Below, one piece after another: positions 4,103-63,461 of a stretch of 64,000 nucleotides of DNA. Every line of letters starts with the position of its first letter. Position 1 is the stretch's first letter. Origin of the DNA: Nitrospiraceae bacterium (GTDB lineage: Bacteria; Nitrospirota; Nitrospiria; Nitrospirales; UBA2166); the NCBI GenBank assembly GCA_002726235.1, contig PBSN01000008.1, positions 98,659 to 162,658 of the forward strand, in the 5' to 3' direction. The notes beneath the pieces were generated by a model. It was not told the origin of the DNA and searched no databases. It was given only the letters and a program-made list of their open reading frames with translations. The translations under genes were made by a program, and so were the position numbers.

Positions 4103-5020
4103 TTATTCCTTGTTAAGGACACCGCTAGGGTTTCTAAGGCCTCCTTGGTCATTGACGGCAGCCTGTCTGGCTTGGAAGTAAGCATCTTGCACAGAGATAT
4201 AAAAATCAAGCGATGCGGTCTCAATGTTCGCAAATGATTCAAGATGGAGGGATCGGGCGTTGGTTATCTCGGTACCGTATGTACCATAGCTTAGGACAGT
4301 TGGCAAAATCGGGTTTGTGACGGGTGTGTCAAAGGCAATATAGGTGAGAGGTTCAAGGGCAGTATCGAAAATCAGTCCGATGCTGTCGCGAAGGGATGAT
4401 GGTCCAAAAAACGGAAGAATAATGTATGGACCGGAGCCCATACCCCAGACAGCAAAGGTTTGTCCCGTATCCTCATTACTCGGATCGATACCAACGAATG
4501 GATGTGATGCAATGTCATATAGCCCACCGATTCCGATGCTGCTGTTGATGGCAAACCGGACGAATTCTCGAGCGGCACCATCAAGTTTTCCTTGCAATAT
4601 GCTATTGACAAAGCGTCTTGGCATGGCCAGGTTCGTAAAGACATTTTTGATATTCTGTTGTACAGAGTCTGGCATGATCCAGTCATATCCGCTTGCGAAT
4701 GGCTTAAAAATAACCCTATCGAAGTAGCGGTTGAACGCAAATGTTTTGACATTTAACGACTCCCATGGGTCGGGATGAATCGCATTTTGGTCATCCCAGT
4801 TTAGTTTCCTTGCATCGGTAAAAGAGGTTGCAAAGGGATCCTCAAAGGGATCCTCAAAGGTGGTCGGTTGAACATTGATCGCCTTCGTCGGTATTTTTGC
4901 AGAACCGGGGGTTGAGGCACATCCAGAGAAGAAGACGAGAGTGACACTCAACAGCACGATCGACCTGGTAGCGAGTGTTCTTTTTCCAACTGTGTGTTGA
5001 TATCTCATGCCGCGCCTCAT
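4103..5020 (-). CDS. mlaA: MlaA/VacJ family outer-membrane lipoprotein
   Basis: The N-terminal signal peptide ends in a lipobox (VFFSGC), so this is a lipoprotein. The MlaA core follows: DPWESLNVKTFAFNRYFD, then GKLDGAAREFVRFAINSSIGIGGLYD and GPYIILPFFGPSSLRDSIG. MlaA removes mislocalised phospholipids from the outer leaflet of the outer membrane and hands them to the Mla chain. No mlaBCDEF genes are in the window. ATG 5020 has CGGAG just upstream; ATG 5008 with GAGG is an alternative. A perfect 12-base tandem repeat near 4838-4861 encodes FEDP twice. Confidence 0.9.
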   Translation of the reverse strand: MRRGMRYQHTVGKRTLATRSIVLLSVTLVFFSGCASTPGSAKIPTKAINVQPTTFEDPFEDPFATSFTDARKLNWDDQNAIHPDPWESLNVKTFAFNRYFDRVIFKPFASGYDWIMPDSVQQNIKNVFTNLAMPRRFVNSILQGKLDGAAREFVRFAINSSIGIGGLYDIASHPFVGIDPSNEDTGQTFAVWGMGSGPYIILPFFGPSSLRDSIGLIFDTALEPLTYIAFDTPVTNPILPTVLSYGTYGTEITNARSLHLESFANIETASLDFYISVQDAYFQARQAAVNDQGGLRNPSGVLNKE

Positions 5021-5193
5021 CTCCGTTTCTCAGCGTGGGTAACGGTGAATCATTTGCGGTTGCAGAGCTATCATACCTCAATCGCTACCGAAGACTGAAG
5101 AGTCAATTTTATGATCGAGATCAAGTTTGCTTGAACCTTGCAAAGGGCCAGGTACTGTGCTAGCGTCTCCATGTTTTTTAGGTGGGGAACTGG

Positions 5194-5628
5194 ATGGCTA
5201 CTGAGGAGGAAGAAAAAGGTTTCGTTATCAAAGATCGGCGTGCGCGGTACGGCGACGATGATGAATCGGTCACATCGCAATCTGCGCAATCTGATGGTGG
5301 GGCCGCAGAGGAGACGGTCTCTGCTCCAGTGAACGATACTGCTTCTGGGACTGAAAGGGAAAAGCCAACTCAGCCTCGTGAACTGACATTTCAGTCCTTT
5401 GTCTACTCCCTCGCATCCTCGGCTCTGATGTTACTGGGAGGAGAGGCAAAAGAGGGTAGCGAACCCACACCGCCGAATCTTCAACAGGCAAGTGAGATCA
5501 TTCAGATACTGACGTTGCTTCAGGAAAAAACAAAGGGCAATCTTGAGGCGGAAGAAGATTCGTTGCTCAAAGATCTGCTCTATACCCTCCGAATTACGTA
5601 TGTCGAACGGGCCGCGCCGAAACCCTAA
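5194..5628 (+). CDS. DUF1844 domain-containing protein
   Basis: About 144 residues. The N-terminal half is charged and low in complexity (ATEEEEKGF, then a Ser/Glu/Thr-rich linker). The C-terminal half matches DUF1844: LTFQSFVYSLASSALMLLG, then NLQQASEIIQILTLLQEKTKGNL and LLYTLRITYVE. ATG 5194 is preferred over GTG 5182 because GGTGGGG sits just ahead of it. The family has no settled function. It is divergent from mlaA across a 170-base gap and 63 bases before the sensor kinase gene. Confidence 0.8.
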   Translation: MATEEEEKGFVIKDRRARYGDDDESVTSQSAQSDGGAAEETVSAPVNDTASGTEREKPTQPRELTFQSFVYSLASSALMLLGGEAKEGSEPTPPNLQQASEIIQILTLLQEKTKGNLEAEEDSLLKDLLYTLRITYVERAAPKP

Positions 5629-5691: not shown

Positions 5692-7566
5692 ATGTTAGTG
5701 AAATCGCGTATCGTGGTATCTCCACAATCTAAGTTAAGCCTTCGGCCGGTCTGGATTACCATTCTGTTTCTGTTGCCATGCCTCGGGCTCACCTATGCCC
5801 TGAATGAATGGACTGGCGCCACTCCTTACATTCCAAGCAACATTCTCGTTTTGACGATGGTCAATGTCGACCTAATTCTTCTTGTTCTACTTGCATTGCT
5901 TCTCTCACGAAATTTGGTTAAGGCAGTTTTTGAGCGTCACTACGGTTCCGGGTTCCAGTCAAAACTAATCTTGGCGTTTGTTGGTTTTTCCCTGATCCCG
6001 TCAGGGCTCTTGTTTATTGTAGCTAGTGGGCTGTTGACCAACAGCGTGAATAATTGGTTTAGCATTCAGGTTGAACAGTCATTGAAAGGCGCCCTTGAAG
6101 TTGCACAATCCTATTACCAAGATCAGCAAACACACATACAGCAAAGTGGACAAGCCATTCGTGATGAGATTGTGCGCCGGAATCTCCTATTGCTACGCCG
6201 AGAAAAGGCATTGCGTGTTGCACTTGAACGGAAGCGTGTTGAACATGGCCTTGCGGCAGTCGAAGTCTGGTCTCCACACATGGAGCTTCTTGGTTCAGCA
6301 ACTGATCCGCATTTTCCAGAGGGCGAGTTAGGGCGCCCGATGGAGCCTGTATTGGAACAAGCCATTGCAGGTGTTCAGGAATTGTTGTTTGAGCCCACAT
6401 CGTTTGGGAAGCTCATGCTTATCGCTTTACCGATTACCTCTTCTTCGACGGCTGCAGTGTCAGCAACAAACACGGCAAATGCTATTGTTGTTGCCTATCG
6501 CATATTTCCAGAGTCGGTTGTCGCAAAGGGTGAAGATATTGTGAGTTCCTATGAAGATTACCGGCAACTTAAAGCGTTTAAAAACCCTATTAAAACGACA
6601 TATATTGTCTCTTTCGCTGTGATTGCGATGGCAATTCTGTTTTCGGCAACTTGGTTCGGCGTCTATCTTGCTCGTCGTATTACTGTGCCAATGGAAAAGT
6701 TAGCTGAAGGCACGAAGGCAGTTGCGGCGGGCAATCTTAGTGTCCACATTGATACGAAGGCTGACGGAGAAATGGGAACGCTTATGGAATCATTTAACAC
6801 CATGGCCAACGATTTGCGGGTCAGTAACGCTGAGTTGGTTAAAGCACAGAAAGTGGCAGTGTGGCGAGAGGTTGCCCAACGGATAGCGCATGAGATTAAG
6901 AATCCCCTCACACCGATTCAGCTCTCCGCCCAGCGACTCCGGAAAAAAGTGCTGGAGGGTGCAGATGGGATTCAAGAAACAGTCCAAGACGCGACAGGTA
7001 TTATCATCAATGAAGTGCAGAGCCTGATGCGCCTGGTGGATTCATTTTCCACTTTTGCACGAATGCCTGAACCAGTGATGGCGGAAGAATCCCTTCATGA
7101 TGTGATTCGTGATGTTAGCATGCTCTATACGACGTCTCAGCGGGATGTGGAGGTGAATCACAGTTTGGATGATGCCGTTCCCCCGATCTCAATCGATCGG
7201 GAACAGATGAAGCGCGTGTTTGTCAACTTGTTTGAGAACGCGATTGAGGCAATGGATCACAAGGGGAAAATCTGGGTACGAACGCGGTATGATGCTCAGC
7301 AACGCAAAGTGTATGTTGAGGTAGAAGATGAAGGGAAAGGGATTCGGCCTGAAGACCGGGATCGACTGTTTCTTCCGTATTTTTCAAACACGAAGAATGG
7401 AACAGGATTAGGATTAGCGATTGTCAATCGAATTATCACCGATCACCATGGCCAAATTCGAGTGTTGACTAATGTATCTGTCGGAACGACTTTTTTCATG
7501 GAACTGCTCGTAGGGAAGAATGGCGAACATGTTGCGGTTGCATCTCAAGGAGTAAACCATGGATAA
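5692..7566 (+). CDS. ntrY: NtrY-like sensor histidine kinase
   Basis: 624 residues. The N-terminus has three membrane segments (about 20-40, 50-75, 88-112), then an extracytoplasmic region and another segment near 305-325. A HAMP domain follows (RRITVPMEKLAEGTKAVAAG), then HisKA with phospho-acceptor His400 (RIAHEIKNPLTPIQ), and HATPase with N box (NLFENAIEAMD), G1 (DEGKGI) and G2 (GTGLGLAIV). Canonical NtrY has a PAS domain between HAMP and HisKA; none is evident. The last codons overlap by 8 bases a degenerate receiver-domain start, so the original partner was directly downstream. That partner, a receiver-LpxC fusion, now lies 2.7 kb away beyond a radical SAM gene. Confidence 0.88.
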   Translation: MLVKSRIVVSPQSKLSLRPVWITILFLLPCLGLTYALNEWTGATPYIPSNILVLTMVNVDLILLVLLALLLSRNLVKAVFERHYGSGFQSKLILAFVGFSLIPSGLLFIVASGLLTNSVNNWFSIQVEQSLKGALEVAQSYYQDQQTHIQQSGQAIRDEIVRRNLLLLRREKALRVALERKRVEHGLAAVEVWSPHMELLGSATDPHFPEGELGRPMEPVLEQAIAGVQELLFEPTSFGKLMLIALPITSSSTAAVSATNTANAIVVAYRIFPESVVAKGEDIVSSYEDYRQLKAFKNPIKTTYIVSFAVIAMAILFSATWFGVYLARRITVPMEKLAEGTKAVAAGNLSVHIDTKADGEMGTLMESFNTMANDLRVSNAELVKAQKVAVWREVAQRIAHEIKNPLTPIQLSAQRLRKKVLEGADGIQETVQDATGIIINEVQSLMRLVDSFSTFARMPEPVMAEESLHDVIRDVSMLYTTSQRDVEVNHSLDDAVPPISIDREQMKRVFVNLFENAIEAMDHKGKIWVRTRYDAQQRKVYVEVEDEGKGIRPEDRDRLFLPYFSNTKNGTGLGLAIVNRIITDHHGQIRVLTNVSVGTTFFMELLVGKNGEHVAVASQGVNHG

Positions 7567-7627: not shown

Positions 7628-9667
7628 TCAAGTATTCACAAGCGGTAAAGGATAGGCGCTTTCGGCAGGTACCATTTGTAAATTGCGCAGGAAGAGTGAG
7701 CCGATACTGCGGGCGTTTAAAACCTTCGATAAAGTTTTACCCTGTATGTCCAGCAAAAGATCGCATGCTTCACGCCGCTTAGGAGTTTCCACCAGCTTTA
7801 CCGCCATTCTATTGGTTGAAGGTGTAAATCTATCTATAGACTTCTTGGTCAATTCTCCGATGTTTTCCGGAAAACTTACCATTTTTTCCTTCAATTCACA
7901 GTCTAATGGGGGGAAAAGTGCTGAGGTAAAAGTGCTGACATCTTCTAATATCATTTCCGGAATACGTGCAAAAGATGCGATGCTACTTTGAATTGCTGTA
8001 TCAAAAGCGGACTTATATTCTTTTAGCAAGATAACGCTGAACAATATGTTCAACTTGTCGAATTCCTGATTGATTAAACGTTGAAAGTTGGTCTCATTGG
8101 AAAAGTAGGTTTCGATGTCTTCTGCGCTATCAAACCATTCAGCATGGGAAAGCTCATCAAACCGATTAAAAAAAACTGCTATGAGGCTCTGGTTTGCGTT
8201 TGGAGGCGAGCAAGTCCTCTGAGTGATTTCCAAAATATTGCGAAAGACATCTATAGGGTTGATGCCATAAAACTGGGCTACTTTCAGGAGCGGTTTGTAA
8301 ATATTTAAATTCCAGCAGAAATCAATTAGGAAATGCAATTTCCTAAAATAAAATAACTCTGACTCTCTCATCGTATTAGTCTCTCGTACACTCTCTTCAT
8401 ATTCGAAGGCATGCAGTGTTGACCCGTCAGAGCACCTGTATATTCCCGCGTCTCCATGGATGAGCCTAAACCGAGTTTTGAATCCAAACTCTTTGCGCGT
8501 TTGAGTCGAATTGGTTTCGGCCCCGGCAAGTAGACGGATGTTGTGGGTATATATAATATCAACGCCAATATCGAGAAGTTCTCTTAATGCGTCTTCATGA
8601 CTTTCCTTGGTTTCACCACCCATTGGAATGATCAATTCAGAAAACGTGTCCGACCCCATATTGCGAAATTTTTCATGGTAGTCAATATAGGTGTTCAAGG
8701 AGATATTAGAGCGTTTGATATTTTTCAAAACCTGCTCATTCAAACTCTGAACAGACATGAAAACTACGACCATGTCCCCGAGTATTTCACCGATCTCAAT
8801 GTTTCTTTGGCTGACGTTTTTGGCCATCCAAATATGGCATCTATGAGGATATCCCGTCGAATCCTTGACACGCCGAATAGCTCTAGCAATTTCAATATCA
8901 CGCGGGAAAATTCCAAAATTGGCATCGCAGATGATCCAGTTTTTCGCCTGAGTCCTCTGACCCACGTAATCGACTTCAGCCAAAGTAGTGTCCACATCAA
9001 AACGGCTGATTCGGTCTTTAGAAGCAGCGCCCCATGCACAGAATGTACACTTGTATGGGCAACCGCGGTTGCTTTCGAACATTGGGACCATTCCGGCTTC
9101 GAGAAATTCATCTAAATAACCATTCAGGTACGGTGAGGGAATATTGGTTATTATTTTCTTAAGAGGGCGAACTCCATTCGAAAGGATTTCTTTCCCATCA
9201 CGCCAAACAATATTTTGCGGCAAATGGTTATAGTCATGGTTGCTTTCACGCCACCAGGTAACTAGTTCGGAAAAGGGTTCCTCTCCACTATCGATAACAA
9301 GGAAATTCAAGTACTGATGCCGGTTGAGAAAAGCGAGGCGTCTTTCTTGGTCTGGATCGATATTAGGGCCTCCGGCCACAATCAGTGCATTTGGTAGAGT
9401 TTTTCTGATGTATCCGCCTACCGACCTATTCAAAGTTTCGTTCCAACCATAGTTTGAAAGCCCTACGATATCAGGGCGTTCTTCCACGATTTTGGAAAGG
9501 AGTTTTTCGGGATGCTTGAATAAGGTGATGTCGACGTTGGAGCCATGCATAGCTGTGGCATAGGATTTTATATAACCAATGTTTAGAGGGGTTAACAACG
9601 AATCGTTTTGAACGGAATGGGTGTGGGCCAAGTCAGCTAGAAAAATTTTGGTCGCTTTTTTCATCAT
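7628..9667 (-). CDS. B12-binding-type radical SAM protein
   Basis: 679 residues. The N-terminal part (about 1-145) looks like a cobalamin-binding Rossmann domain (ERPDIVGLSNYGWN, LIVAGGPNIDPD, FLVIDSGEEPF). The radical SAM domain follows with the cluster motif CPYKCTFC (Cys203, 207, 210). The C-terminal 250 residues have no recognisable domain. This architecture is used for methylations and ring or carbon-skeleton chemistry in natural-product and lipid pathways, but no substrate can be read. The gene is more AT-rich than its neighbours, opposite in strand to them, has no pathway neighbours, and is flanked by copies of the ntrY end. It was probably acquired. Confidence 0.8.
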   Translation of the reverse strand: MMKKATKIFLADLAHTHSVQNDSLLTPLNIGYIKSYATAMHGSNVDITLFKHPEKLLSKIVEERPDIVGLSNYGWNETLNRSVGGYIRKTLPNALIVAGGPNIDPDQERRLAFLNRHQYLNFLVIDSGEEPFSELVTWWRESNHDYNHLPQNIVWRDGKEILSNGVRPLKKIITNIPSPYLNGYLDEFLEAGMVPMFESNRGCPYKCTFCAWGAASKDRISRFDVDTTLAEVDYVGQRTQAKNWIICDANFGIFPRDIEIARAIRRVKDSTGYPHRCHIWMAKNVSQRNIEIGEILGDMVVVFMSVQSLNEQVLKNIKRSNISLNTYIDYHEKFRNMGSDTFSELIIPMGGETKESHEDALRELLDIGVDIIYTHNIRLLAGAETNSTQTRKEFGFKTRFRLIHGDAGIYRCSDGSTLHAFEYEESVRETNTMRESELFYFRKLHFLIDFCWNLNIYKPLLKVAQFYGINPIDVFRNILEITQRTCSPPNANQSLIAVFFNRFDELSHAEWFDSAEDIETYFSNETNFQRLINQEFDKLNILFSVILLKEYKSAFDTAIQSSIASFARIPEMILEDVSTFTSALFPPLDCELKEKMVSFPENIGELTKKSIDRFTPSTNRMAVKLVETPKRREACDLLLDIQGKTLSKVLNARSIGSLFLRNLQMVPAESAYPLPLVNT

Positions 9668-10054: not shown

Positions 10055-10286
10055 TTCTAAACACGCTGTGATGCTCACGTAAAATGCATGTTGAGGCAGT
10101 AGGTAAAAGAAAATCGATTCGAATCAGTGATCGTCAACGGCATTATCATTAATCACCATGGTCAGATTTGAGTTTTTCTCAATGTATCGAAATGTATCGA
10201 GCAGAATGACTTTTGCGATGGGGATGCTTGTAAGGGAGAGTGGTGGATATATCACGGCTGCATCTCACGGAGTAGACCATGGGTGA
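10055..10286 (+). pseudogene. Decayed second copy of the ntrY 3' end
   Basis: This segment aligns with the end of the intact kinase gene. GATGCTCAC...TGTTGAGGCAG near 10073-10110 matches 7288-7330. GATCGTCAACGGCATTATC near 10129 matches 7419-7437, and AATCACCATGG is shared. About 70 bases covering the G1-to-G2 part of the ATPase domain are missing, and there are in-frame stops. The final codons (VDHG, then TGA at 10284-10286) match the intact end (VNHG, TAA) and overlap the start of the receiver-LpxC gene by 8 bases, as at the upstream copy. Confidence 0.75.
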
Positions 10287-11541
10287 AACCGTGCTTATTG
10301 TCGACGACGAGACCGCAATTCTGGAGTCTGTTTCCGGCATTCTACAAGACGAAGGGTTTAGTGTTGTGGCTGCGAATTGCAGTCGTGACGCCTTGGCCAT
10401 GATCAAGAAGTGTAATCCGTCACTTGTTCTCCTTGATGTCTGGATGCCAGATGAGGATGGCTTGACACTTTTAACGCGGCTCAAGACTTTGAGGCCGAAC
10501 ATGCCGGTGATCTTGATTACCGGTCATGGGACTATTGATACAGCTGTTCGTGCCATTCGACTTGGCGCTGTGGACTTTCTCGAAAAGCCTCTTTCATTAG
10601 ACGGTCTTGTTCAAGCTGTCAAAGGAGCAATTGGGAATGAAGTGACCAAGGTGGATGTGTTGCCCGTAAGCCAGACTGTCAAAAATCGCTATCGTGGTAG
10701 CAAAAGAGTATCGTCAGTGCCGCAACGAACAGTGGCTAAGAGTGTCGTGATAGGGGGAGTGGGGTTACACAGTGGTGTACGAACTGGCCTGATTTTGCAA
10801 CCACTCGGATTGAACAATGGGATTCGATTTAGCAGTCTTGCTGGTGATGGCGTGGTTGAGGCCCATCTTGATAATGTCGACTTGACTGGATATGCCACCA
10901 CGCTTCTCAAAGATGGGATGCGAGTACGCACAGTGGAACATTTCATGTCGTCGTTGCACGCTTATGGTATTACAAATCTTTTGGTGAAAGTTGAAGGAGA
11001 ACTTCCAATTCTTGATGGTTCTGCCAGCGAATTTTGCGAATTACTTGAGTCCGCTGGCATTGAAGAACAAGCGGGGACCTTGCCACAGATTGTCATCAAA
11101 GAACCAATTAGTGTGACAGACGGATTAGATGCCGAGATCTCGATTAGCCCGTATGAGGGATTTAAGATCACCTACGAACTCTCTCATCCACCTCCCGTTG
11201 GCGATCAAACATACACCTTTGAACTAGACTCACCTGCTGCCTTCTGTAACGAAATTGCCCCGGCGCGTACCTTCGGATTTTTAAATGAGGTGAGTGAATT
11301 GGAAGAAATGGGACTGGCCAAGGGGGGGAAACTCGACAACGTCATTCTCGTTTCAGATCACGGAGTGATTAATACCCCACTGCGGTTTTTAGAGGAATTT
11401 GCTCGCCACAAAATTCTCGACATCATAGGAGATTTTTATTTACTCGGACGGCCAATCAGCGGTGCAGTTCATGCACGAAAAACTGGCCATACCGAAAACA
11501 TTGCACTGCTACGAAAAATTCGAGAAACCATGAAACTCTAG
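10279..11541 (+). CDS. lpxC: Response-regulator receiver domain fused to LpxC (UDP-3-O-acyl-GlcNAc deacetylase)
   Basis: 420 residues. Residues 1-118 are a complete receiver domain: acidic pair Asp9/Asp10, phospho-acceptor Asp53 (LLDVWMPDEDG), Thr81 and Lys103. A linker of about 30 residues leads to LpxC (about 148-420), starting IGGVGLHSG. The zinc ligands His221 (TVEHF), His377 and Asp381 (RHKILDIIGD) and catalytic His404 (TGHTENI) are all in place. LpxC commits UDP-acyl-GlcNAc to lipid A. The fusion suggests that phosphorylation tunes deacetylase activity or stability; the NtrY-like kinase upstream is the natural candidate. The ATG overlaps a decayed kinase end. No DNA-binding or sigma-54 domain is present. 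Confidence 0.93.
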   Translation: MGETVLIVDDETAILESVSGILQDEGFSVVAANCSRDALAMIKKCNPSLVLLDVWMPDEDGLTLLTRLKTLRPNMPVILITGHGTIDTAVRAIRLGAVDFLEKPLSLDGLVQAVKGAIGNEVTKVDVLPVSQTVKNRYRGSKRVSSVPQRTVAKSVVIGGVGLHSGVRTGLILQPLGLNNGIRFSSLAGDGVVEAHLDNVDLTGYATTLLKDGMRVRTVEHFMSSLHAYGITNLLVKVEGELPILDGSASEFCELLESAGIEEQAGTLPQIVIKEPISVTDGLDAEISISPYEGFKITYELSHPPPVGDQTYTFELDSPAAFCNEIAPARTFGFLNEVSELEEMGLAKGGKLDNVILVSDHGVINTPLRFLEEFARHKILDIIGDFYLLGRPISGAVHARKTGHTENIALLRKIRETMKL

Positions 11542-13318: not shown

Positions 13319-15022
13319 TTATATGTTATCTGCTTGCAAGGCATCAAGGCGTAGCTCAAAAATCGTACATGGCATAGTGATCTGCCAATTATCAAGTACT
13401 TGTGGATGGAGTTCGCCGAGGAGGCCACATGGCTCCTGATTCAGTGTGAGTTGTCCGACACGGCCATCAATGAAAGATGGATGTGTTGTTGGTTTGACTT
13501 TGTATGATAAGCCGAGGGTGTAAAACAGTAGGTCAACGTAGGAGTGTATTTCCGAAAAGTTGGCATTTGGGTGGGCTAAGAGTGCGCCGATGGCGTTGAG
13601 TGTTCGAGTGCCGGATTCGGTGTTCGGGTCTGGTTGTACGATCTCGCCTGCTTCGAAGAGGCAATGAGGATAGAAACTATGAGAAGACGCGGCTTCTACA
13701 CGAAGTAACGAAGGAATTATCCATTGCCGGACACAGCTATAGGTGAGGGACATCACGTTGTCAACCTCGATGATGTCTGTGGTCGGGAGGTTCATCCGAA
13801 TCGCCAAGTCTTCCTGTGAGGACAAGATGTTCGAAAGGATTTCTTGAAATCCAAACCCAATCATGAGTTCGCGGACTTTGTCCGAGATTATCTCAGATTG
13901 AGAAAGGCTTCCGACGGTGAACTCGGAAGGGAGGGCGGTTGAAAAGGCGTTATACCCAGTGCTGATGGCAATGTCCTCGATGGCATCGACGGGGTGCATG
14001 AGGTCATCACGGTAGGGAGGTTGTTTCACGTAGAGAGTTTTTACGTGTGACTTGACCTGATATCCATATTCAATTAGCGCTTGTTTTCCTTCGTTCAAGG
14101 TTAGTGAGTTACCAAGGGTGGCATTGATGATCTCCTGAGGCACTTCGATCTCTGACCCACAATCATACGGCACGTGAATTGATTTCCCGAATTCTGTCGG
14201 CGCAGGATAGAGTACCTCTATGGAATCAATTTTCGCCTTACGATCGGCGAAATTAGCTGCGAGAATATTAATCGCATGCAGGACCATGCGTAGATCGGTT
14301 CCAGTCACCTCGACGAACAGGTTTTTATCGCCAACCTGCACTTCCCCAATTTCACGGCTATTGATGATTGGGGGGAAGGAAAGGATAGTCCCATTGGCAT
14401 CGGTGAGCAATGGGCAGTGTTGTTTGCCGTCTTGACCGATCAGCGTGGATTTGTACTCAATCCCTTTGGGATGGCATTCTAGGATCTCCGTCAGCGTCAT
14501 TGGCTCGTCAAATCCTAACGGAGTGAAACGCACGGTGTCAGGGTCTGCGATGGTATACGTGACGGGGAACTGTATGGGATCAAGCCGATAAATGCCGATG
14601 GACACGCTCTTTCGTTTACGTCCGAAGATATCGGCCAGTTTTTCCTGTGTTTGGATCAGTTGTGCCAATCCTCGATCTGAGAGTGTGTAGCCTGTTGCCT
14701 TAAAACCGCCAATATACTGCCTGATTACATGAAGACCGTGTCCGACCTTGATTTGATCGAGAGTCTTCTTCGCTGGTTTGAAAAACGAATAGGGGAGGAG
14801 CTTCTCATCCAGTTTTGTGCGAATTTGGCGTGCAATTCCCTCAGTACACCAGAGATCTGGACGATTGGTATCTTGAAGTTCGATCTTAAGCGTGTCCGTT
14901 GCAGGTTCATAGTCCTTGATTTCGCCCTTTGCCAGCAGTATCCATTTGTCTAATTCCTCAAGGGTGAACGTGTGCCCGATGAGTGTTTCGAGGTCTTGTT
15001 TTGGAAAATCAATCGTTGGCAT
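13319..15022 (-). CDS. pheT: Phenylalanyl-tRNA synthetase beta subunit, archaeal/eukaryotic type
   Basis: 567 residues, well short of the roughly 800-residue bacterial PheT and lacking the N-terminal tRNA-binding (EMAP-like) domain and C-terminal anticodon-binding domain. It begins MPTIDFPKQDLETLIG and contains ELQDTNRPDLWCTEGIARQI near residue 50, which are hallmarks of the archaeal/eukaryotic beta chain. A B5 domain and a catalytic-like core follow. It pairs with the pheS gene six bases upstream, also of archaeal type, so the whole enzyme belongs to that class. Product: Phe-tRNA(Phe), in the cytoplasm. Confidence 0.92.
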   Translation of the reverse strand: MPTIDFPKQDLETLIGHTFTLEELDKWILLAKGEIKDYEPATDTLKIELQDTNRPDLWCTEGIARQIRTKLDEKLLPYSFFKPAKKTLDQIKVGHGLHVIRQYIGGFKATGYTLSDRGLAQLIQTQEKLADIFGRKRKSVSIGIYRLDPIQFPVTYTIADPDTVRFTPLGFDEPMTLTEILECHPKGIEYKSTLIGQDGKQHCPLLTDANGTILSFPPIINSREIGEVQVGDKNLFVEVTGTDLRMVLHAINILAANFADRKAKIDSIEVLYPAPTEFGKSIHVPYDCGSEIEVPQEIINATLGNSLTLNEGKQALIEYGYQVKSHVKTLYVKQPPYRDDLMHPVDAIEDIAISTGYNAFSTALPSEFTVGSLSQSEIISDKVRELMIGFGFQEILSNILSSQEDLAIRMNLPTTDIIEVDNVMSLTYSCVRQWIIPSLLRVEAASSHSFYPHCLFEAGEIVQPDPNTESGTRTLNAIGALLAHPNANFSEIHSYVDLLFYTLGLSYKVKPTTHPSFIDGRVGQLTLNQEPCGLLGELHPQVLDNWQITMPCTIFELRLDALQADNI

Positions 15023-15027
15023 GGGTG

Positions 15028-16605
15028 TTAAAATGGCATTGGTTGCTGACGGATGAGGTCGAGATTGGCAGTAAAGAGATCGCGAATATCATGAATTCCC
15101 AGTGCGATCATTGCCATGCGGTCCAGTCCTAGGCCCCATGCGATGACGGGGACTTTGATGCCTAGTGGATGCGTAACTTCTGGCCGTAGCAGTCCAGCCC
15201 CTCCAAGTTCCATCCAGCCTAATTTCGGATGTTCGACATGCAGTTCAACTGAGGGTTCGGTAAATGGAAAGTATGCTGGTGCGAATTTCACCTTTGTGGT
15301 TTGCGCCATCTCCTTTGCAAAGAGTGATAAGAGTCCGAGGAGTGTCTGGAAGTTGATGGTGTTTCCAAGCACGATACCTTCTGTTTGGAAAAAGTCAGTA
15401 GCATGGGTGGCATCAATCTGGTCATAGCGAAAACAGCGTGCCATGGAAAAATATTTTCCGGGAATCTTCGGTTGTGACGCGAGAGTTCGCGATGATACTG
15501 CAGTTCCTTGGCTACGGAGGACCAGACGTCGAGTCTGTTGCTCATTGAAGGAGTAGCGCCAGCCTCGGGACCCTGTTGTCCAGCCATCACGATGGGTTTG
15601 GGAAACTCGGCTAACATAAGGTTCAGGGATAGGTTCTGAATACGCAGGACTCTTCACGAAATACACATCATGGATATCGCGGGCGGGGTGAAATTGCGGC
15701 ATGTAGAGCGTGTCCATATTCCAGAATTCACTTTCGACGATCGGACCACGCATTTCCTCGAAACCCATGCTGACCAATGTTGTTTTGACTTTGTCCAAAA
15801 ATGATCGGTAAGGATGCTTTTTTCCTGCAGTAATTCGTGGGGGACGTAGCGCGATGTTGTATGGGCGGGGGGCACGCGTTCGCCACGATCCGTCTTTCAA
15901 TATTTCAGGCGTCAGTTGTGCGTAGCCCTCTTTGACTCCAGTGGTCATCACGTTTGTGGCAATTGCTTGCCCTGCGTCAGTGAGTGCAAAGGATCGCGTG
16001 ATATGTTCATCAACCCGAAACGGTTCTTGTGAACGTCCTCGCCGTTGGGAAAAGGTATCGATGATCTTGCGTTCCGTATCAGGTCGCGTGTCGTAGCTTG
16101 CCGGACCGTGAGCGATATCTTCGATGAGCATACGGAGCGTAGACGTTAGCTCACTCACTGGTGATGTTGGTTCGAGTACTCCTCCAGGACCTATCTGAAG
16201 GGACCCTTCTGTTTTTAGCGCTCCGATGGGACCACTCAGGTCGCTTGCCTGTAGGCCTAGCGTCTCCTGAAGGGTTTTCATGGTGAGAAGGCCGCCCTGT
16301 TGCTTAGCTTCCGTGGCTCCAGTGAAAATTCGTTCTAAGAGGGATCCTTCTTCAGAAAACTTAGTGCCTACTGAGGTGAGGGAGACGACTTTTGTGAGAA
16401 CCTCTGACGTGATCGTGATGTACTGCTTGGCTTGCATCCATCCGATGCTCATGCTGACTTGTGCAGGGTCGAGGCCAGTATGTGCTGCGAGGTCAGCTTC
16501 GCTGGTGGGGGATTGTTTATGCAAGTCGCTAAGGATGGCGACTTCGAGTGGATGAAGGCTTGAGAGTTGGTGCTCCTCTAGAGGAGACGATTCTTTTTGT
16601 GTCAT
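15028..16605 (-). CDS. pheS: Phenylalanyl-tRNA synthetase alpha subunit, archaeal/eukaryotic type
   Basis: 525 residues; bacterial PheS is about 330-350. The extra N-terminal 200 residues look like winged-helix modules (HPLEVAILSDLHKQ..., SEADLAAHTGLDPAQVS), typical of archaeal/eukaryotic alpha chains. The class II core has HPARDIHDVYF (archaeal-type motif 1/2 region), FRYDQIDATHATDFFQTEG and motif 3 GLGLDRMAMIALGI. Its start overlaps the rpe stop by four bases (ATGA). Both subunits being of archaeal type in a bacterial housekeeping operon points to an old replacement by transfer. Confidence 0.93.
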   Translation of the reverse strand: MTQKESSPLEEHQLSSLHPLEVAILSDLHKQSPTSEADLAAHTGLDPAQVSMSIGWMQAKQYITITSEVLTKVVSLTSVGTKFSEEGSLLERIFTGATEAKQQGGLLTMKTLQETLGLQASDLSGPIGALKTEGSLQIGPGGVLEPTSPVSELTSTLRMLIEDIAHGPASYDTRPDTERKIIDTFSQRRGRSQEPFRVDEHITRSFALTDAGQAIATNVMTTGVKEGYAQLTPEILKDGSWRTRAPRPYNIALRPPRITAGKKHPYRSFLDKVKTTLVSMGFEEMRGPIVESEFWNMDTLYMPQFHPARDIHDVYFVKSPAYSEPIPEPYVSRVSQTHRDGWTTGSRGWRYSFNEQQTRRLVLRSQGTAVSSRTLASQPKIPGKYFSMARCFRYDQIDATHATDFFQTEGIVLGNTINFQTLLGLLSLFAKEMAQTTKVKFAPAYFPFTEPSVELHVEHPKLGWMELGGAGLLRPEVTHPLGIKVPVIAWGLGLDRMAMIALGIHDIRDLFTANLDLIRQQPMPF

Positions 16606-62435: not shown

Positions 62436-63461
62436 ATGGCGTGGCAGCAGGGTGATCAATGGGGACAGTCCGATAACCCATTACAGGACATTTTTAAGAA
62501 AGTTGAACGTCTTTTTGGTGGTGGAGGTGGACCTGTTAAGGGGCTGAAAACCATCATTGCATTGGGGTTAATCATTCTATTTTTTGTGTCTGCTTTTTAT
62601 ACCGTGGCACCAGACGAGCAAGGCGTTGTCAAGCGTTTTGGCAAGGTGGTACGAGTCACAAATCCTGGACCGCATTTCCGTGTGCCCGTCATCGAAACAG
62701 TCTATAAACCGCAAGTGACCAAGGTTCATCCCGTTGCCATAGGGTTTCGTCGAGATCCTAGCGGGCGTGCACAGGTGCTGCCACGAGAAGCTTTGATGCT
62801 CACCGGCGATGAAAATATTTTGCAGGTTGAAACGGTCGTCCAATATCGGATTCAGGATGCTGAAGCCTATCTGTTTAACGTTGCGAACGTTGAATCAACC
62901 ATAAAAAAGGGGAGTGAAGCCGCAATTCGTGAAGTGTTAGGAAAAACTCACGTCGATGATGCTCTGACGACTGGGAAACAGGAGATCCAAACCAAAACTC
63001 AGGACATTGCCCAAAAGATCTTGGATAGTTATTCCGCTGGGGTTGAAATTACGACTGTTCAGTTGAAGGATGTCTCGCCGCCCAAGGAAGTTGTTGCAGC
63101 GTTTAAGGATGTAGCCAGCGCAAAGGAGGATCGTGAGCGGCTGATTCGTCAGGCGCAAAGTTATGAAAACGATATTATCCCAAAAGCGAAGGGCCAGGCA
63201 GCTCAAACGGTCAACGAGGCTGAGGCTTTTGCTCAGGCGAGGGTGCAGCGTGCCAAGGGCGAGGGGGATCGATTCGTAAAACAGCTTAAGGAGTACCGTC
63301 GTGGAAAGGATGTGATCCGAAAACGCATCTATATCGAAACGATGGAAGCAATATTACCGAGGATGGACAAAGTCATTATCGAAGGGAAAGTTGCGGATGG
63401 CATCCTTCCCTATCTTCCACTTGGACAAGGGGTGCGAGCGAAAGGTAATGTCGGACAATGA
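62436..63461 (+). CDS. hflK: HflK, FtsH protease modulator
   Basis: 341 residues. Gly-rich N-terminus (GGGGGPVKG), one membrane helix (TIIALGLIILFFVSAFYTV), then a band-7/SPFH domain (DEQGVVKRFGKVVRVTNPGPHF). Family HflK, shorter than E. coli HflK (about 420). With HflC it forms a cage around FtsH that controls degradation of membrane proteins. AAGGAGG lies 11 bases before ATG. Overlaps hflC by four bases. Confidence 0.95.
   Translation: MAWQQGDQWGQSDNPLQDIFKKVERLFGGGGGPVKGLKTIIALGLIILFFVSAFYTVAPDEQGVVKRFGKVVRVTNPGPHFRVPVIETVYKPQVTKVHPVAIGFRRDPSGRAQVLPREALMLTGDENILQVETVVQYRIQDAEAYLFNVANVESTIKKGSEAAIREVLGKTHVDDALTTGKQEIQTKTQDIAQKILDSYSAGVEITTVQLKDVSPPKEVVAAFKDVASAKEDRERLIRQAQSYENDIIPKAKGQAAQTVNEAEAFAQARVQRAKGEGDRFVKQLKEYRRGKDVIRKRIYIETMEAILPRMDKVIIEGKVADGILPYLPLGQGVRAKGNVGQ

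Follow-up and report, generated by a model that had tools for sequence, protein, structure and literature searches.

An NtrX-type receiver domain fused to LpxC and its candidate NtrY-type sensor kinase in a Nitrospiraceae bacterium

The receiver-LpxC gene and its surroundings

The window referred to here is the whole 64,000-nucleotide stretch of DNA that we analyzed, which comes from a Nitrospiraceae bacterium (assembly GCA_002726235.1, contig PBSN01000008.1, forward-strand positions 98,659 to 162,658). The main features at the locus, given in window positions, were as follows.

5182 to 5628, plus strand: DUF1844 protein, a marker of the native ntrY locus (Pfam DUF1844; synteny)
5692 to 7566, plus strand: NtrY-type membrane sensor histidine kinase of 624 amino acids with His400, the proposed partner kinase (Pfam NtrY_N, HAMP, HisKA, and HATPase_c)
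7628 to 9667, minus strand: B12-binding radical SAM protein, between ntrY and the fusion (Pfam)
10279 to 11541, plus strand: receiver-LpxC (REC-LpxC) fusion gene, a single uninterrupted open reading frame with an ATG start and 420 codons for amino acids (Pfam/NCBIfam; orthologues in three other genomes of the genus)
10291 to 10623, plus strand: NtrX-type receiver domain, residues 5 to 115 (Pfam Response_reg, E value 2e-31), with the acidic pair D9/D10, the phospho-acceptor D53, T81, and K103
10636 to 10704, plus strand: flexible linker, residues 120 to 142, predicted to be disordered (AlphaFold2 pLDDT <50)
10723 to 11520, plus strand: predicted LpxC deacetylase domain, residues 149 to 414 (Pfam LpxC, E value 1.6e-82; TIGR00325 above cut-off)

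The first-pass annotation had described a full receiver domain (Asp53, Thr81, and Lys103) joined to a complete LpxC with intact zinc and catalytic residues, and both halves of this description held. Receiver residues D9, D10, D53, T81, and K103 and LpxC residues E220, H221, D246, H377, K378, D381, D385, and H404 were all verified by position in the window protein; H221, H377, and D381 are the zinc ligands of the fused LpxC, and E220 and H404 are the catalytic residues. The fusion scored 243 bits against TIGR00325, the curated lpxC model, which has a cut-off of 187, and the best NCBIfam equivalog for the receiver was NtrX. However, Response_reg and LpxC were the only domains that Pfam detected, with no σ54-type AAA+ domain or helix-turn-helix found, which indicated that the window protein was not an NtrX.

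No chain in the solved structures spanned both a receiver and an LpxC. An AlphaFold2 model of the fusion, built with 54 fusion sequences as input, had a mean pLDDT of 86.5 and a pTM of 0.81; linker residues 120 to 142 were the sole segment reported below 50, and the LpxC half matched Aquifex LpxC with a TM score of 0.95. Across the REC-LpxC proteins, the linker was 25 to 66 amino acids long.

In the window, ntrY and the fusion gene are 2,712 bp apart, and the radical SAM gene lies between them on the opposite strand. The same gene was found between ntrY and the fusion in another locus (L032), but not in that of a close relative (L034), where ntrY directly adjoins the fusion. The earlier description of the kinase as being next door thus holds for the close relative and needs a qualification for the window, where an opposing gene separates the two. 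A PAS domain between HAMP and HisKA was not detected by Pfam in the window NtrY and was detected in that of locus L201.

Two other features of the window are recorded here as side observations. An MlaA-like gene (4103 to 5020, minus strand), whose product resembles an outer-membrane lipid-asymmetry lipoprotein with a match below the curated cut-off, is divergent from DUF1844-ntrY, and an MlaA-like gene also adjoins DUF1844-ntrY in L032, so that a gene for envelope lipids adjoins the proposed locus of LpxC control. Farther along (13319 to 16605, minus strand), the two subunits of phenylalanyl-tRNA synthetase belong to the archaeal type, which is unusual in a bacterium: PheT scored 464 bits against the archaeal model TIGR00471 and 115 bits against the bacterial model, and PheS (525 amino acids) has an N-terminal extension.

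Distribution and ancestry of the fusion family

A full-length fusion was present in all four genomes of the window genus, the other three proteins being 83 to 91% identical to the window protein, so the gene is neither an assembly error nor a chance open reading frame. Outside the genus, a survey of whole genomes with a profile built from six fusions found the REC-LpxC arrangement that the first-pass annotation had proposed looking for: 91 of 395 genomes in the deltaproteobacterial phylum carried a fusion, as did 4 of 199 in the Aminicenantes phylum; in the phylum of the window itself, the count was 15 of 396, from four families. One metagenome-assembled deltaproteobacterial genome encoded a fusion with 53% identity and had ntrY directly upstream, and an Aminicenantes one encoded a fusion with 43% identity. 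The REC-LpxC fusion therefore occurs in at least three bacterial groups, and with dozens of examples elsewhere in addition to the four in the genus, an assembly or frameshift artifact was ruled out.

About 71 of the 91 deltaproteobacterial-phylum genomes had REC-LpxC, and in the remaining 20 the LpxC domain ended a frame of approximately 630 to 820 residues. The domain order of this long form in Pfam was Response_reg, Sigma54_activat, AAA lid, and LpxC, which amounts to an NtrX that carries LpxC as its last domain. The GAFTGA loop is the σ54 contact. All 18 of the NtrX-LpxC proteins analyzed had kept Walker A and lost the GAFTGA loop, whereas the loop was kept in the separate NtrX of all 20 sister-genus loci, each of which lay directly downstream of ntrY. 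With the GAFTGA loop lost or the ATPase absent and the receiver and LpxC intact, the transcriptional machinery is decayed or missing in the fusion family. On a combined tree, the switch between NtrX-LpxC and REC-LpxC needed a single change, which may have run in either direction; our first reading, in which a full NtrX-LpxC had lost its ATPase repeatedly, was dropped as unproven.

When 161 LpxC domains were placed in a maximum-likelihood tree, the fused ones formed a single clade (support 96) apart from 74 stand-alone LpxCs, and repeated independent fusions were thus unsupported. The 74 include the stand-alone LpxCs of the sister genera (support 99). No un-fused LpxC of the fusion clade was seen at the survey thresholds, at which well-conserved ones would be expected to show, except in L213, where the receiver is in a separate, overlapping frame beside a fusion-clade LpxC; this split is probably a frameshift. 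Separate genes at homologous loci, which the first-pass annotation had taken as the sign of an assembly error, were therefore not a feature of the fusion LpxC clade. In the sister genera, ntrX and lpxC are indeed separate genes, but the LpxC encoded there falls in another clade.

In the combined REC and LpxC tree, the window fusion nested within deltaproteobacterial-phylum sequences, which indicated that the genus had replaced the LpxC of its order with a fusion-clade one. Two origins of the window receiver, from the native NtrX or by arrival with the foreign LpxC, were both compatible with the data.

Residues of both domains were strongly conserved. Equivalents of D9, D10, and D53 were kept in 85 of 86 different fusion proteins and those of K103 and T81 (T or S at the latter position) in at least 85 of 86, the single exception to receiver conservation being L240, in which the receiver is broken; the LpxC catalytic and zinc residues were kept in all 86. 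Thus, phosphorylation and catalysis both appear to be under selection.

The window genome has no LpxC other than REC-LpxC, and the same was true of 70 of the 80 fusion genomes checked; of the others, nine carried a stand-alone LpxC as well, and G634 carried two fusions. Because REC-LpxC is the only copy, basal activity must be retained, and because all four genomes of the window genus encode LpxB, the lipid A pathway exists there. From the status of the fused LpxC as sole LpxC in an LpxB-bearing genome, we infer that it is a deacetylase.

Fusion and stand-alone LpxC occurred together in groups f18, f23, and G449/G493 and in G040 and G288. The fusions of f18, f23, and G449/G493 (L244 to L250, L191, L220, and L255) make up a divergent REC-LpxC subgroup on a long branch. 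Most of the genomes checked in this subgroup also keep a stand-alone LpxC, and G649 and G678 showed the fusion only; in this subgroup, the fused enzyme may have an accessory role. In G634, which has no stand-alone LpxC, a short gene of approximately 230 residues, starting MKK and similar in the two cases, lies before each of the REC-LpxC genes (L232, 6072 to 7487; L233, 3757 to 5184).

The candidate kinase and possible modes of control

The first-pass annotation had suggested that links between the fusions and ntrY-type kinases be examined, and a link was found. An ntrY gene lay within 500 bp upstream of the fusion in 28 of the 82 loci with enough flanking sequence and was not adjacent in the other 54. 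Among 19 unlinked fusion genomes, 18 had an ntrY with no receiver gene beside it, based on an NtrY_N search and a reading of the neighborhoods; the exception was G172, in which a receiver-AAA+ gene lies 2 kb from ntrY. In one unlinked genome (G373; L345, 135 to 4767), the ntrY without a neighboring regulator forms part of a gene run that also holds two lipid A genes, waaA (Kdo transferase) and lpxK.

The window ntrY is native to its genus. Its product grouped with the NtrY of the sister genera (support 100), and an AU test rejected a joint transfer of ntrY and the fusion into the genus (p = 1e-43). A DUF1844 gene lies upstream of ntrY in the window, as it does in 17 of 20 sister-genus loci, a set that was chosen by NtrX and is thus biased toward ntrY with a neighboring ntrX. 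The window genus has retained the DUF1844-ntrY locus and has a fusion-clade LpxC downstream, where the sister genera have ntrX. Loss of σ54 as the cause of the ntrX loss was ruled out, as each of the four genomes of the genus encodes RpoN.

The window genome encodes six receiver domains and three recognizable histidine kinases; the sizes of two further HATPase matches (828 and 629 residues) suggest GyrB and MutL. NtrY was the only one of the three kinases without a neighboring regulator gene, since the other two each adjoin their own, and none of the six receiver proteins was NtrX-like in this assembly, which is about 91% complete. Subject to that completeness, NtrY and REC-LpxC would be partners by elimination.

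The single origin of the family, the conservation of both active sites, the pairing with ntrY, and the usual absence of another LpxC support the suggestion in the first-pass annotation that the enzyme itself could be the output of a response regulator served by an NtrY kinase. We consider it probable, on these comparative grounds, that NtrY phosphorylates Asp53 and that the receiver directly controls LpxC output in cis. NtrY would sense an envelope-related signal at the membrane and autophosphorylate on His400, the phosphate would pass to Asp53, and the phosphorylation state of the receiver would set, in cis, the amount of lipid A precursor that is deacetylated. The simplest route would be an inhibitory contact between receiver and LpxC that is relieved or imposed across the flexible linker, as in CheB. 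In this lineage, such an arrangement would have taken the place of two older controls, one being transcription through NtrX and the other the tail at the C terminus of stand-alone LpxC.

In Rhodobacter sphaeroides, loss of NtrYX raised lpxC mRNA 8.8-fold and increased LPS (PMC7240162), so NtrY is already linked to LpxC in other bacteria. By analogy, the lowering of lpxC expression by NtrYX in that species is a hint that the system, in one of its states, may act as a restraint. We infer phosphotransfer from NtrY and an effect on activity, which may be of either sign. The main uncertainty is whether the receiver acts on the stability or location of LpxC instead of on its catalytic rate, and these are live alternatives.

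In the case of stability, phosphorylation would alter the delivery of LpxC to a protease, and the receiver would replace the lost degradation tail. Regulators of the RssB/CpdR kind gate proteolysis by a receiver. In E. coli, FtsH controls LpxC by way of a degron in the C-terminal tail, according to a 2025 review (PMC12444477). Of 130 stand-alone LpxCs in our surveys, 123 extended past the core by at least 21 residues, some of them into FabZ, but all fusions ended 0 to 14 residues after the LpxC core and thus lacked the tail carried by the stand-alone LpxCs of the sister genera. The window fusion reaches its C terminus 6 residues past the core, and a tail of the FtsH-type, degron-bearing kind is absent. 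The missing tail fits the replacement of one control by another, as a correlation. The window also encodes an HflK homologue, a modulator of the FtsH protease (62436 to 63461, plus strand), approximately 51 kb from the fusion. Nonetheless, no sequence mark of the receiver as a protease adaptor was found, and tail loss may also mean that turnover control was simply given up; we regard control by proteolysis as doubtful.

In the case of location, the receiver would tether LpxC to NtrY at the inner membrane, and phosphorylation would control binding and not catalysis. NtrY is a membrane protein, the later lipid A steps take place at the inner membrane, and Neisseria Ght is proposed, in the same review, to promote LPS synthesis by placing LpxC at the membrane (PMC12444477). 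However, the near-absolute conservation of the phospho-acceptor Asp would be unneeded for docking unless binding depended on phosphorylation, and we judge this reading unlikely.

It seemed more improbable still that another kinase or small phosphodonors, and not NtrY, drive the receiver. The 54 loci without an adjacent ntrY would agree with such a donor, as would the 13 of 38 fusion genomes in which NtrY_N was not detected, although this model is insensitive and also missed the ntrY-bearing genomes G002 and G620. The solitary NtrY in 18 of the 19 unlinked genomes, the NtrX type of the receiver, and the lack of any other unpaired kinase in the window genome argue against it. Finally, unrelated neighbors do fuse, and ntrY-ntrX loci and lpxC were possibly once neighbors, but a passive fusion in which LpxC is unaffected by the receiver is very improbable, given that the phospho-acceptor residues are kept in 85 of 86 proteins across three groups while the σ54 loop decays or the ATPase is absent and that the split-frame locus is the only un-fused member of the clade seen.

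Significance and relation to known systems

The step catalyzed by LpxC commits the cell to lipid A synthesis and is the most closely regulated one of the pathway; the enzyme is also an antibiotic target. Phosphorylation switches such as the receiver ordinarily serve bacteria in turning on genes. The known controls of LpxC are breakdown, partner binding, and transcription. If NtrY does act on LpxC through the fused receiver, the fusion would provide a direct, fast, and reversible control that is wired to a membrane sensor, and lipid A synthesis may be set by that sensor without gene switching. The system would also offer a handle on what NtrY, whose role is debated, senses, as the downstream enzyme has a measurable product. 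In addition, separate NtrX, NtrX-LpxC with a decayed ATPase, and REC-LpxC make up a natural series for studying the switch from transcription factor to enzyme.

Regulators with enzyme outputs and two-component control of lpxC transcription are already known (PMC7240162; PMC3333781). We found no published description of a receiver-LpxC fusion, and an earlier listing in surveys of output domains is possible; a term search of the 2025 review of LpxC control found no mention of a fused receiver (PMC12444477).

One of the closest known systems is NtrY-NtrX, which shares with the fusion the NtrY-family kinase, the NtrX-type receiver, the DUF1844-ntrY-regulator position of the locus in the window genus, and, in Rhodobacter, an effect on lpxC and LPS (PMC7240162). 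NtrX, however, is a DNA-binding AAA+ regulator, and the output of the fusion is the LpxC enzyme, with no DNA-binding domain. In the case of DVU2934 of Desulfovibrio vulgaris, a two-component regulator likewise has lpxC as its single mapped target (PMC3333781), but it works on the transcription of a stand-alone lpxC. Stand-alone LpxC under FtsH/LapB (E. coli) or MurA (Pseudomonas) has the same enzyme fold and active site, but is controlled through a degron, an adaptor, or MurA binding, where the fusion has a receiver and is missing the tail. The bifunctional LpxC-FabZ proteins of Verrucomicrobia, which were seen in our surveys, also hold LpxC within a fusion protein, but there the C terminus of LpxC is joined to a second lipid enzyme and not to a signaling domain. 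In general layout, the fusion resembles the enzyme-output response regulators CheB, a methylesterase, and PleD and RpfG, which are c-di-GMP enzymes, in that a receiver is N-terminal to a catalytic domain and there is no DNA binding; to our knowledge, none of the enzyme-output regulators has the anabolic, committed-step enzyme of lipid A synthesis as its output.
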